Source: Leptolyngbya sp. DLM2.Bin27
GTDB lineage: Bacteria; Cyanobacteriota; Cyanobacteriia; Phormidesmidales; Phormidesmidaceae
Length of the DNA stretch: 53,803 nt
Reading direction: 5' to 3'
Assembly: GCA_007694115.1 (NCBI GenBank)
Contig: RECJ01000191.1
Coordinates: 1 to 53,803 of the forward strand
The stretch's first letter is position 1. Each line of letters opens with the position of its first letter. Positions 51 to 4,104 of the stretch are shown here, one piece after another. The notes under the pieces were generated by a model. That model searched no databases. It had not been told where the DNA came from and was given only the letters and a program-made list of their open reading frames with translations. Both the position numbers and the translations under genes were made by a program.

Positions 51-632
51 CTAGGGGCGTTCGTAGAGATCGAGGCGATAGTTTTCGGTGCGGCCATCGT
101 GCCGATGGTGGAGCTGAGTTGCAGCAAAATCGTGAAACGCAGCGTGGACATCGTCACCCCGCAGGGGATAGCTAGGGGCCTCATGCACCCAGTGCACCAG
201 CAGCAAATGTCCGCCGGGCCGCAGGGAGTTGTAGATCCGCTCCTGGGCCTGGTGGAGATCGGCCCAGCACCAGTAGTAGCCCACCTCAGACAGCAAGACC
301 AGGTCAAAGGTTTCACTGGGGTAGTCGTGGGGCACATTCATGATCTCAAAGCGCACCTGGGGCAGGTGTTGGCAGCGCTGGATCGCCTGGGCCTGGGCCA
401 CGCTGGATAGATCGACCGACAGCAGCGAGTCGCAGCGGGCCGCCAGGTGCTGAGTCAGCACCCCGATAGAGCCGCCGATCTCCAAGGCTGAGGAGTAGCG
501 GGGCCGGGGTAGAGCGGCCAGGGTGGCGGCATATTTGGCGGCCTCGTAGGCGCTGGTGGCAAACCGCCAGGGGTCAGGGTCAGCCCGGTAGAGCTGGTCA
601 AAAAAGTCGGCACCAAGGGAGGGTTGGGTCAT
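51..632 (-). CDS. NodS-like SAM-dependent methyltransferase
   Basis: A 193-residue class I SAM-dependent methyltransferase. The SAM-binding motif I reads EIGGSIGVLT at residues 51-60, and an acidic ribose-binding residue lies in VDLSS near 73-77. The start (FFDQLYRADPDPWRF) and overall size resemble the NodS family, which N-methylates the de-N-acetylated sugar of Nod factors; the true substrate here is unknown. Its ATG overlaps the stop of the PIG-L deacetylase gene by four bases, so it is the third gene of a translationally coupled operon with an acyl-CoA-dehydrogenase-like protein. A sugar whose amine is first exposed by the deacetylase is a reasonable inferred substrate. The family call is good; NodS-type activity is inference. 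Confidence 0.8.
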   Translation of the reverse strand: MTQPSLGADFFDQLYRADPDPWRFATSAYEAAKYAATLAALPRPRYSSALEIGGSIGVLTQHLAARCDSLLSVDLSSVAQAQAIQRCQHLPQVRFEIMNVPHDYPSETFDLVLLSEVGYYWCWADLHQAQERIYNSLRPGGHLLLVHWVHEAPSYPLRGDDVHAAFHDFAATQLHHRHDGRTENYRLDLYERP

Positions 633-1387
633 GGCAGCGGCTCCAAAAAAAATTCCCAGGGGTTGAGAAAATTAGCGATCAGCGCGGGTGAGAGGCGAAA
701 GCCGGTGGGGTCGTCGGCGATCAAGTCGGTGGTTTGGGAGCGGTAGCAGTGGATGGCCTGGCGTTTGAGGGCCACATAGGGGGTGATATCTAACCGCCAG
801 GGCTGGTAGCGGGCGGCTAGGGGCTGGCGCTGCTCGGGGTCCCAGTCCCAAATTGGGTATTCGATCTGGCGGGGCGGCTGATCCAGGGCGGCGATCGCCC
901 CCTGGATCAGGCTCCAGGCTGCCCGGTGGTCACGGTGGGGATCGTAGCGGTAGGGCAGGAAAATGGTGCGGGGGGCCACCTGGGGCAGGTATCGCTGGCC
1001 CAGGGCTAAAGCGGCCTGAGCGTCGGCCTCGGGTGGGCTGGGCGAGTCCCTCAGCGCAGGGACTGAGCCATCGGGCAGCCGCCAAAAGGTGACCTGGTCT
1101 GCCGCGACCCCCAGCAGCGCTAGGGCGCTCAGGGTTTCAGCTTCGCGGACCTGGCGCAGGCGCGGGGCCGGGTACTGCTGCGATCGCGGGTGCGATCGCG
1201 TACCGTCACTGACGACCAGCACCGACACCGGCTGGTTTTGGGCGCGCAGGGCGGCGATCGCACCGCCACAGCCCAGGGTTTCGTCGTCGGGGTGGGGGGC
1301 CACCACCAGCACCGGAGCCTGGGGAAGCTGCGATCGCAGCGGCACCGCTTGCGGGTCGCCCAGGGGAGAGAGGCCAGAGACTACCAT
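629..1387 (-). CDS. PIG-L/LmbE family deacetylase
   Basis: A 252-residue zinc-dependent de-N-acetylase of the PIG-L/LmbE family. The metal-binding signature HPDDE is at residues 32-36, in VVAPHPDDETLGCGG, and a second histidine motif PHRDHRAAW follows in the C-terminal half. Family members remove acetyl groups from N-acetylglucosamine-type sugars such as GlcNAc-PI, MshB substrates and teicoplanin. The ATG at 1387 is chosen because it overlaps the stop of the upstream acyl-CoA-dehydrogenase gene by seven bases. The longer reading frame back to 1567 is low-complexity sequence lying inside that gene. The 3' end overlaps the methyltransferase start by four bases. The substrate is not known. Confidence 0.88.
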   Translation of the reverse strand: MVVSGLSPLGDPQAVPLRSQLPQAPVLVVAPHPDDETLGCGGAIAALRAQNQPVSVLVVSDGTRSHPRSQQYPAPRLRQVREAETLSALALLGVAADQVTFWRLPDGSVPALRDSPSPPEADAQAALALGQRYLPQVAPRTIFLPYRYDPHRDHRAAWSLIQGAIAALDQPPRQIEYPIWDWDPEQRQPLAARYQPWRLDITPYVALKRQAIHCYRSQTTDLIADDPTGFRLSPALIANFLNPWEFFLEPLP

Positions 1388-2595
1388 AGGTCGTGGGCCG
1401 GGGCGGTTTGGGCCAGCACGTAGGCCCCCACCCCGGCGATGGCGGCATCGTAGGCGGGCTGCCGCAGGTAGAGGGTCAGATCGCGCAGCACCCGCTCTAG
1501 GGGGGCCGGTGGCAGCAGCCCCCGGGTGCCCACCGATCGCTGACAGAGCTGCATCGTATCCATGCAAATCTGCTCAACGGCGGTGCGCATCATGTTGGCA
1601 TAGGCCAACAGCTGCGCCTGTCGAGGATTGGAACGCTCGCGTTTACCGGCAAACTGGGCATCGTAGGCGACGATCTGGTCGGCGGCCCCGCGCAGCCACA
1701 GCTGGCCCGTCTCTAGGGCAATTGCCATCTGCCCCAGCCGCTCTTGCTGGTAGGGGTGGTCAACCCGGCCCAGAGACTGCAAATACTGCCGGGTCAGGTC
1801 GAAAATGGCAGCGGCCCCGCCCAGCTGCACCGCCGCAAACCGCACCACCCCGGCGGTCAGCCAGGGCTGGCGCAGGTAGTCTCCCGGCTGACCGATCAGA
1901 TCGCCCGCCCCTAGCTCCACGCCGGTAAAGTCGATTTTGTAGCTGGCGGTGGCCCGCATGCCCATGGGCTGCCACCAGTCGCGATCGCACTGGGTGCTGA
2001 CTTGATCCATCGGCACGATCGCCATTTGCCAGGTGCCGTCGGGCAGTTTGCCATTGACAAAGGGGCGGTTGACGTAGCCCGCCCCCGAGCAAAAGGTTTT
2101 AGCCCCCTGCAAACGGTAGCGACCGCTCCCCAGGGGCACAATGCTCAGCCCCTCGGCATCTTCGGCATTCCAAACCCCAAACAGATGATGGCGATCGCGC
2201 GCTGCTTGACCGTAGCGCTCAAGCTGCTCTGCCGTGCCAAAGGTCTGAATCAGCTGCAGGGCGTTGACGTGGCCCTCATAGACCCGGCCCACCGCTAAAT
2301 TGCCCCGGCCAATGTGCTGGAGCAACCGCAACAGATCGTGGGTTGATGGGGCATCAATGCCCAAACCACAGCCCCCTAGACCGCGTCGCAGCGGGGCCAC
2401 CAAAAACCCTTCTGCGGCTAAGCAGTCAAACGCCTCGACCGGAAACGCACCCGGCTGGTCAACTTCAGCCGCCCGCTGGGCAAACCCCTCGGCCAGGTGG
2501 GCGGCCCGCTGCACCAGGGCCGCCGTAGAGGCCAGGCCAGGCGGTGACAACGGGTCGACGGCGGGGGTCACAGCAGCAGAGAACGACATATCCAA
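1381..2595 (-). CDS. Acyl-CoA dehydrogenase-fold flavoprotein
   Basis: A 404-residue protein of the acyl-CoA dehydrogenase superfamily. It has an N-terminal helical domain with a GLGGCGLGID segment near residue 75, a central beta domain (FGVWNAEDAEG, LQGAKTFCSGAGYVN) and a C-terminal helical domain. The usual C-terminal catalytic YEGT glutamate is not evident: the corresponding stretch reads LRDLTLYLRQPAYDAA. It may therefore be a flavin-dependent oxygenase or hydroxylase on this fold, such as the DszC/HpaB-like branch, rather than a classical dehydrogenase. It is the first gene of a coupled operon with a PIG-L deacetylase and a NodS-like methyltransferase, which points to tailoring of an amino sugar or glycolipid rather than fatty-acid degradation. 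Confidence 0.8.
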   Translation of the reverse strand: MDMSFSAAVTPAVDPLSPPGLASTAALVQRAAHLAEGFAQRAAEVDQPGAFPVEAFDCLAAEGFLVAPLRRGLGGCGLGIDAPSTHDLLRLLQHIGRGNLAVGRVYEGHVNALQLIQTFGTAEQLERYGQAARDRHHLFGVWNAEDAEGLSIVPLGSGRYRLQGAKTFCSGAGYVNRPFVNGKLPDGTWQMAIVPMDQVSTQCDRDWWQPMGMRATASYKIDFTGVELGAGDLIGQPGDYLRQPWLTAGVVRFAAVQLGGAAAIFDLTRQYLQSLGRVDHPYQQERLGQMAIALETGQLWLRGAADQIVAYDAQFAGKRERSNPRQAQLLAYANMMRTAVEQICMDTMQLCQRSVGTRGLLPPAPLERVLRDLTLYLRQPAYDAAIAGVGAYVLAQTAPAHDLW

Positions 2596-2619: not shown

Positions 2620-4104
2620 TCATGACTCTTCCATCGGCACCCACACCGACACCGAACCCGCCTGGCAGCTAAACTCGGCCCAGCCGTCGTCATTGGTGGT
2701 GACAGACTCCTGAATATGCTCAGTGATGTCGTAATAGGTGCAGTTGGATTTTCCTACCTCCATCCACTTGCGGCCGTCGTCGCTGTTGGTGAGCACCACG
2801 GCCATACCGCCGGGGTTGGCCTCGGTGCCAAGCCGAGTCCAGCCAATGGTGTTGGGGTGGTCAAAATAGTCGTACTGGTCACCAAAGGCGTAGGTGCTGC
2901 GGGCATACAAAAACTTGTCGATCAGCCATTTGTGGCTGTCCAGCCAGATCTCGTATTCGCCGCCGTCTTTGCCCTTGTCTTGGTAGTGGGCCCCGTAGTA
3001 GTCGGCGTAGAAAATGCAGGGGTAGCCATCCTGCCGCAGCAAAATCAGGGCGTAGGCCAGGGGTTTAAACCAGGGTTCTACCACCGATTCGAGCGATTGC
3101 AGGGGCTGCGAATCGTGGTTGTCGACTAGGGTGACGGCCAGGGCAGGCTGCTCTTTGACTAGGGTGTTGTCGAAAATGGTGGTGAGGTCGTAGTCGCCCC
3201 CGGCCTGGCTGGCCTCGCTAAAGTTGTAGTGCAGGGGCGCATCAAACAGGTGCACGTCACCATCGGTGACCTCAATAAAGTAGTGCAGTGCCTCAATCTC
3301 GTAAGACCAGTACTCGCCCACCGCAAACAGTCTGCGACCGGCCTCGCGCCGACAGTGCTGTAGCCACTGGGGGAAAAAGCCCGCCCGCACGTGCTTGACC
3401 GCATCGAACCGGAAGCCATCGACCTGGGTAATGTCGGTATACCAGGAGCCCCAGGTCTTGAGGGCGTCGCGCACTTCGTCTGACTCCATGTCGAGATCGC
3501 AGCCCATCAGGTAGTCAAACGCGCCTTTTTCCAGGTCAACATTTTCGTCAAATGACTTACCTTCAAACAGGTAAACAGCGTCGTAGTCAGGATTGTTGTC
3601 GTCGTAGTCGACGGCGTCAAAATGCCACCAGTGCCATTCCATGTCAGAATATTTGCCCTGGCGACCGGGGAATTTAAAGTGGGTCCACACCTTGACTGTG
3701 CGGGGTTGGTCAATGGGTTCATGGCGATTGTCGTGGCTCATCGGGGTGGCCGTGACTTCTTCGAGGGCATCGCCACCCATCATGTGATTAAACACCACGT
3801 CGGCATAGACCCGAATACCCGCCTCTTTAGCGGTCTTGATCGCCTGAAGATATTCGTCTTTAGTGCCGTATTTGGTGCGAACGCTGCTCTTTTGGTCAAA
3901 TTCGCCCAGGTCGTAGAGGTCGTAAACGCTGTAGCCTACATCGTAGCCGCCGGCGTTACCTTTGTAGGCAGGGGGCAGCCAAACGGAGGTGATGCCAGCC
4001 TCTGCCAAGTCTTTTGCGTTGTCGGCCAGTTCATTCCACAGGTTGCCATTGGGTTCAATATACCAATGGAAATATTGCATCATTACGCCATTTGGCTCTG
4101 ACAT
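2620..4104 (-). CDS. Cytoplasmic alpha-amylase, GH13
   Basis: A 494-residue GH13 alpha-amylase that hydrolyses internal alpha-1,4 bonds of glycogen or maltodextrins. All four conserved regions are visible: DVVFNH at 102-107, GFRFDAVKH at 230-238 with nucleophile Asp234, the acid/base Glu264 in FAVGEYWS, and VDNHD at 327-331 with transition-state Asp331. There is no signal peptide, and the opening MMQYFHWYIEPNGNLW is typical of the intracellular GH13_5-type enzymes. A likely role is glycogen turnover inside the cell. It is separated by 24 bases from the upstream end of the divergently functioning flavoprotein operon and may be transcribed independently. Confidence 0.93.
   Translation of the reverse strand: MSEPNGVMMQYFHWYIEPNGNLWNELADNAKDLAEAGITSVWLPPAYKGNAGGYDVGYSVYDLYDLGEFDQKSSVRTKYGTKDEYLQAIKTAKEAGIRVYADVVFNHMMGGDALEEVTATPMSHDNRHEPIDQPRTVKVWTHFKFPGRQGKYSDMEWHWWHFDAVDYDDNNPDYDAVYLFEGKSFDENVDLEKGAFDYLMGCDLDMESDEVRDALKTWGSWYTDITQVDGFRFDAVKHVRAGFFPQWLQHCRREAGRRLFAVGEYWSYEIEALHYFIEVTDGDVHLFDAPLHYNFSEASQAGGDYDLTTIFDNTLVKEQPALAVTLVDNHDSQPLQSLESVVEPWFKPLAYALILLRQDGYPCIFYADYYGAHYQDKGKDGGEYEIWLDSHKWLIDKFLYARSTYAFGDQYDYFDHPNTIGWTRLGTEANPGGMAVVLTNSDDGRKWMEVGKSNCTYYDITEHIQESVTTNDDGWAEFSCQAGSVSVWVPMEES

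Follow-up and report, generated by a model that had tools for sequence, protein, structure and literature searches.

Three overlapping genes lie at one end of a contig of the cyanobacterium Leptolyngbya sp. DLM2.Bin27, and they raise the question of what their products make together. A preliminary description had read them as a Nod-factor-like tailoring operon in which a sugar amine is exposed and methylated and a flavoprotein oxidizes an acyl or amine group. We analyzed the window, a stretch of 53,803 nucleotides that constitutes one entire contig of a 4.28-Mb assembly of 322 contigs, together with related loci of other bacteria. We propose that the triad and a convergent GT2 glycosyltransferase gene form a portable four-enzyme cassette making an N-modified amino sugar, an interpretation to which we give about an even chance of being correct. 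The features concerned are as follows.

1-44, no strand: 7-bp tandem repeat TTCTGCC at the contig end, probable assembly break
51-632, minus strand: predicted NodS-like class I SAM N-methyltransferase, ATG start, 193 aa
629-1387, minus strand: predicted PIG-L (LmbE, CE14-type) de-N-acetylase, ATG start, 252 aa
1381-2595, minus strand: predicted group D-type flavin monooxygenase with an acyl-CoA dehydrogenase fold, 404 aa, first gene of the triad
2620-4104, minus strand: GH13 alpha-amylase, 24 bp upstream of the flavoprotein gene and on the same strand
Contig C258, 274-1572, minus strand: GT2 glycosyltransferase, outside the window in the same genome

The sequence and reading frames confirmed the three minus-strand genes at 51-2595, with the flavoprotein stop and the PIG-L start overlapping by seven bases (1381-1387) and the PIG-L and methyltransferase genes by four (ATGA, 629-632). 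The flavoprotein starts at TTG 2595, and ATG 2589 is an alternative in-frame start. Pfam searches matched the three proteins to Acyl-CoA_dh_2 (2e-9), PIG-L (6e-26), and NodS (2e-15), respectively. Only the closest relatives (L099, L100/L002, and L101) had a homologue of the GH13 alpha-amylase (89-91% identical) in this position, and the closest named one in the comparison set was Nodosilinea sp. LEGE 07298 (L002); the alpha-amylase gene is a clade-specific neighbor and not a core member of the cassette.

The PIG-L protein was scanned against genome contigs and 80 loci were kept. In 52 of them all three triad genes were close together, and adding the window and ten relatives from the same genus or class gave 63 triad loci. 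The order flavoprotein, PIG-L, and methyltransferase on one strand was retained in 61 of the 63, a fraction that differs from prevalence because the loci were chosen by PIG-L similarity, and the median gaps were −7 and −4 bp. Such conservation of order indicates that the arrangement did not arise by chance, and the triad held up as the unit that had been proposed. The adjacent GT2 gene (PF00535) that had been predicted was also found, beside 51 of the 63 triad loci; 39 of these genes are downstream on the opposite strand, nine are upstream on the same strand, and three are arranged otherwise. Collinear operons of GT2, flavoprotein, PIG-L, and methyltransferase genes were present in Methylobacterium, Aureimonas, Sphingomonas, and Rhodanobacter. 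In Deinococcus proteolyticus (L121:10887-13308), the cassette methyltransferase and GT2 genes were followed by genes for a GT1-type glycosyltransferase and UDP-galactopyranose mutase.

The triad loci belonged to Cyanobacteriota, Bacteroidota, Verrucomicrobiota, and Pseudomonadota, and plasmid records added Deinococcota and Actinomycetota. Counting the center genome each time, the methyltransferase was encoded in 12 of 24 same-genus genomes and two of 15 other genomes of the class, as well as in three of 143 alphaproteobacterial and two of 140 gammaproteobacterial genomes. Plasmid-borne cassettes were found in Deinococcus, Bradyrhizobium, Novosphingobium, Roseomonas, Acinetobacter, Pandoraea, Cupriavidus, Sulfitobacter, Kitasatospora, and Rubrobacter. 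This patchy distribution, together with plasmid carriage, suggests horizontal spread of the cassette. The open-licence papers that we searched contained no description of it, an absence that carries little weight.

The contig of the window ends 50 bp past the methyltransferase stop, within the 7-bp tandem repeat, and the gene following the methyltransferase therefore cannot be seen here. A single GT2 homologue was found in the genome, at 280-1527 of contig C258, where it is located at the contig end and points toward it; it shares 78% identity with its cassette-linked counterpart in L002, and all four genes are together in nine relatives. Exact 27-mer matches to the repeat numbered 122 across the genome, many of them at contig ends; the repeat apparently fragments the assembly, and a break between the methyltransferase gene and a convergent GT2 gene is probable. 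A direct join of the window to C258 through the repeat was considered and weakened by how common the repeat is. As 52 bp of unrelated sequence also precede the repeat in C258, linkage at this locus rests on synteny and not on sequence overlap. The structural model of the GT2 showed a soluble GT-A fold in which no membrane helices were apparent, and its catalytic half matched polysaccharide and teichoic-acid GT2 enzymes.

The PIG-L protein scored 91.9 bits against PF02585 (cut-off, 28.2), which places it in the family, and the metal-binding and catalytic motifs AHPDDE and HxDH were invariant across 36 PIG-L relatives. Its nearest profile matches in the PDB were diacetylchitobiose deacetylase (2e-23) and BshB1 (3e-18). 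Members of the family remove acetyl groups from GlcNAc-containing substrates, and these data suggest that the PIG-L protein of the window, with its catalytic motifs intact, is a de-N-acetylase.

For the methyltransferase, searches of Pfam, NCBIfam, and PDB profiles all pointed to NodS as the closest characterized relative, and the protein did not group with non-sugar methyltransferases. The PDB search ranked 4isc first (6e-49), NodS second (6e-30), and phosphoethanolamine N-methyltransferases thereafter. The DPW and SEVxYY motifs were common to the methyltransferase and NodS, and the two are only remotely similar, with 33% across two thirds of the length. Against the NCBIfam NodS model NF041650, the methyltransferase scored 64.8 bits, below the equivalog cut-off of 300, whereas true NodS proteins scored 342 and 353 bits. 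A midpoint-rooted tree placed NodS and a trifunctional protein of Gloeothece on one side and all cassette methyltransferases with 4isc on the other (support of the separating branch, 95/75). Judged from sequence, this split makes the cassette methyltransferases a sister family of NodS. Since 4isc, a structural-genomics methyltransferase without assigned function, fell inside the cassette clade, a solved structure exists for the family.

A Nod-factor-like lipochitooligosaccharide pathway, with the flavoprotein desaturating an acyl chain, would explain why a NodS-like methyltransferase, a deacetylase, and a GT2 co-occur, but we regard it as very improbable. Real NodS occupies a separate long branch of the tree, and its gene adjoins nodABC in nodABCSU operons, whereas the neighbors of the cassette methyltransferase gene encode PIG-L, the flavoprotein, and GT2. 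No NodA-type N-acyltransferase was seen in the annotated cassette neighborhoods, the GT2 model has none of the membrane segments of a NodC-like synthase, and the flavoprotein is devoid of the acyl-CoA dehydrogenase base, as detailed below. Together with a score of 65 bits where the NodS cut-off is 300, these findings speak against a Nod-factor pathway. What survived of the parallel with NodB and NodS in the preliminary description is the chemistry: as NodS is the nearest family and the triad is conserved with a GT2, deacetylation followed by N-methylation of a sugar amine is the best reading. Like NodB, NodC, and NodS, the cassette would combine a glycosyltransferase, a de-N-acetylase, and a NodS-type N-methyltransferase acting on an amino sugar. 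It differs in that its deacetylase is PIG-L instead of NodB (except in Rubrobacter), its GT2 is predicted to be soluble and is not NodC, NodA, NodU, and NodIJ are missing, and a flavin monooxygenase is added.

Fusions and replacements among the homologous loci support this putative sugar-amine chemistry. A plasmid of Gloeothece encodes a protein of 1158 aa (L127:1964-5440) that unites a GT2, a NodS-like, and a CE4 polysaccharide deacetylase domain. On a Rubrobacter plasmid, a CE4 deacetylase of the NodB superfamily (PF01522, 4e-26) takes the position of PIG-L and adjoins the flavoprotein, methyltransferase, and GT2. PIG-L and the methyltransferase are fused in one frame in Gloeobacterales (L028), and six Methylobacterium loci carry PIG-L, methyltransferase, and glycosyltransferase genes in this order without the flavoprotein gene. 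Collectively, the fusions, the CE4 replacement, and the flavoprotein-less loci argue for a core of glycosyl transfer, de-N-acetylation, and methylation, to which oxidation is a frequent but dispensable addition.

Several other variants were observed. Long frames resembling the Gloeothece trifunctional protein were present in G340 and G343. Methyltransferases of the Nostoc type are fused to an HAD phosphatase domain at the N terminus, confirmed by Pfam in L007:8720-10036, and similarly long N-terminal extensions were seen in L009, L010, L012, L013, L014, and L020. In Methylobacterium, a frame of 330 codons upstream of PIG-L (L036:6684-7676) is conserved in approximately ten loci; it gave no Pfam, NCBIfam, or flavoprotein match and may not be a real gene.

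The predicted structure of the flavoprotein (pLDDT 92.5) was most similar to FMN-bound DszC (Z 42.4, rmsd 2.1, 365 aligned). True acyl-CoA dehydrogenases followed with a Z of approximately 40, so that the fold alone does not discriminate between a monooxygenase and a dehydrogenase. Sequence decided the assignment. The best NCBIfam match was dibenzothiophene monooxygenase (7e-22), and the PDB profile search returned DszC (9e-33), MsuC (4e-28), KijD3 (1e-18), DnmZ (4e-16), and nitrososynthase (1e-15). The catalytic glutamate of acyl-CoA dehydrogenases was absent at the C-terminal base position, the base motif being replaced by a conserved RDLxxYLRQP (RQP, rarely KQP or RQA, at the base position). 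In our own motif alignment, the alternative base position in helix G coincided with an invariant glycine. With an acyl-CoA dehydrogenase fold and with DszC, MsuC, and KijD3 as its closest relatives, the flavoprotein resembles group D monooxygenases and is predicted to act as one.

This resemblance and the missing base bear on the earlier suggestion that the flavoprotein oxidizes an acyl or amine group: the acyl alternative lost ground, and amine N-oxidation appears the likelier. Since DszC and MsuC are sulfur oxidizers, an atom other than nitrogen may be oxidized, which makes the site of oxidation the least certain part of the proposed pathway. KijD3, DnmZ, and the ORF36-type nitrososynthase likewise place a monooxygenase on an acyl-CoA dehydrogenase fold, as would be expected beside amino-sugar enzymes, but they use dTDP-deoxyamino sugars in antibiotic pathways, and the cassette flavoprotein is nearer to DszC and MsuC. 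The N-oxygenase ChmG shares the fold, is without the usual base, and resembles KijD3 (PMC10849742), and N-hydroxylation has been reported for group D enzymes (PMC6165268). Group D monooxygenases rely on a separate enzyme to reduce their flavin, which then forms a C4a-hydroperoxide. A flavin reductase gene was not part of the cassette in most loci, and an adjacent pyridine nucleotide-disulphide oxidoreductase was found only in the Rubrobacter cassette.

The flavoprotein of Deinococcus radiodurans (L109:1175-3514) was fused to an N-terminal glycoside-hydrolase-like domain; we had considered a fusion of GT2 and flavoprotein there and rejected it once the extra N-terminal part proved to be this domain. 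Stand-alone homologues of the domain (37-39% identity) were located upstream of PIG-L in Dyadobacter (L030 and L031), where they adjoin a TuaH-like glycosyltransferase.

The same enzymes might act in another order or at another position. Oxygenation could come first and give an N-hydroxy or nitroso sugar that is then O-methylated, or the flavoprotein could hydroxylate a carbon of the acceptor; gene order does not fix the order of the steps, and group D enzymes also hydroxylate carbon (PMC6165268). We consider these variants conceivable but unlikely, given that the methyltransferases closest in the profile searches are N-methyltransferases and that the cassettes without the flavoprotein keep the methyltransferase beside PIG-L, which fits methylation of a bare amine.

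Outside the cyanobacteria, the cassette is often found beside stress-survival genes. Among 50 cassette-carrying genomes, catalase was encoded within 10 kb of the cassette in four cases (0.28 expected) and within 20 kb in six (0.56 expected), and LigD within 10 kb in three (0.10 expected), where two of the catalase cases are both from Dyadobacter and thus not fully independent, and the expectation ignores the operon clustering of accessory genes. On plasmids, catalase directly followed the cassette in Sulfitobacter, and nearby genes encoded catalase and LigD in Novosphingobium, catalase and GlgE in Cupriavidus, Ku and LigD in Bradyrhizobium, OtsA in Acinetobacter, and OtsB with GH65 in Legionella. 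Such neighbors were not seen in cyanobacteria, where neither catalase nor LigD was found within 20 kb of the loci examined, and the link to stress may thus not apply to the organism of the window.

Oxidative-stress neighbors such as catalase would also suit a pathway for a low-molecular-weight thiol or its conjugates, in which the flavoprotein would oxygenate sulfur, the methyltransferase would methylate it, and PIG-L would work as a deacetylase or amidase of the BshB/Mca type. The closeness of PIG-L to BshB1 and the sulfur oxygenases among the NCBIfam matches of the flavoprotein agree with such a pathway. Mycothiol and bacillithiol synthesis (MshA/MshB and BshA/BshB) likewise couples a glycosyltransferase to a PIG-L de-N-acetylase that then acts on a small glycoside. 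Those syntheses differ, however, in using a GT4 and not a GT2, in having a cysteine ligase, and in having no methyltransferase or monooxygenase. The cassette encodes no cysteine-adding enzyme (BshC or MshC), its methyltransferase is NodS-like, and both the CE4 enzyme replacing PIG-L and the fusion of GT2, NodS-like, and CE4 domains favor a glycan amine. A thiol pathway for redox buffering or detoxification therefore seems improbable to us.

In the four-enzyme pathway that we prefer, the soluble GT2 would transfer an N-acetylamino sugar to an acceptor. PIG-L, by virtue of its intact motifs, would strip the N-acetyl group and expose the amine, which the NodS-like enzyme, as its family suggests, would N-methylate with SAM. 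The group D flavin monooxygenase, with its acyl-CoA dehydrogenase fold and lost base, would oxygenate the substrate, most likely at the same nitrogen, with reduced flavin supplied by a reductase encoded elsewhere. The gene order, families, motifs, fusions, replacement, and neighborhood statistics were observed; we infer every substrate and the reaction order. The product probably helps cells to survive stress on exposed surfaces. More specifically, and tentatively, the cassette may represent a horizontally spread pathway unrelated to symbiosis that yields an N-methylated and N-oxidized amino-sugar glycoside acting as a stress protectant or redox-active molecule in cyanobacteria, Deinococcus, Hymenobacter, Methylobacterium, and others. 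An N-hydroxy-N-methyl glucosaminide would be one possible, if speculative, example.

If our interpretation is correct, sugar-amine deacetylation combined with N-methylation, as in rhizobial Nod factors, would be a general bacterial trait of six phyla, with genes that are frequently plasmid-borne and adjoin those for catalase, NHEJ, and trehalose. Primary or stress physiology would also gain an amine-oxidizing flavoprotein with an acyl-CoA dehydrogenase fold, a kind of protein whose genes are routinely misannotated there as encoding fatty-acid enzymes. For D. radiodurans and for phyllosphere and terrestrial bacteria, it would provide a biochemical hypothesis for the cassette, with the 4isc structure at hand for its methyltransferase.
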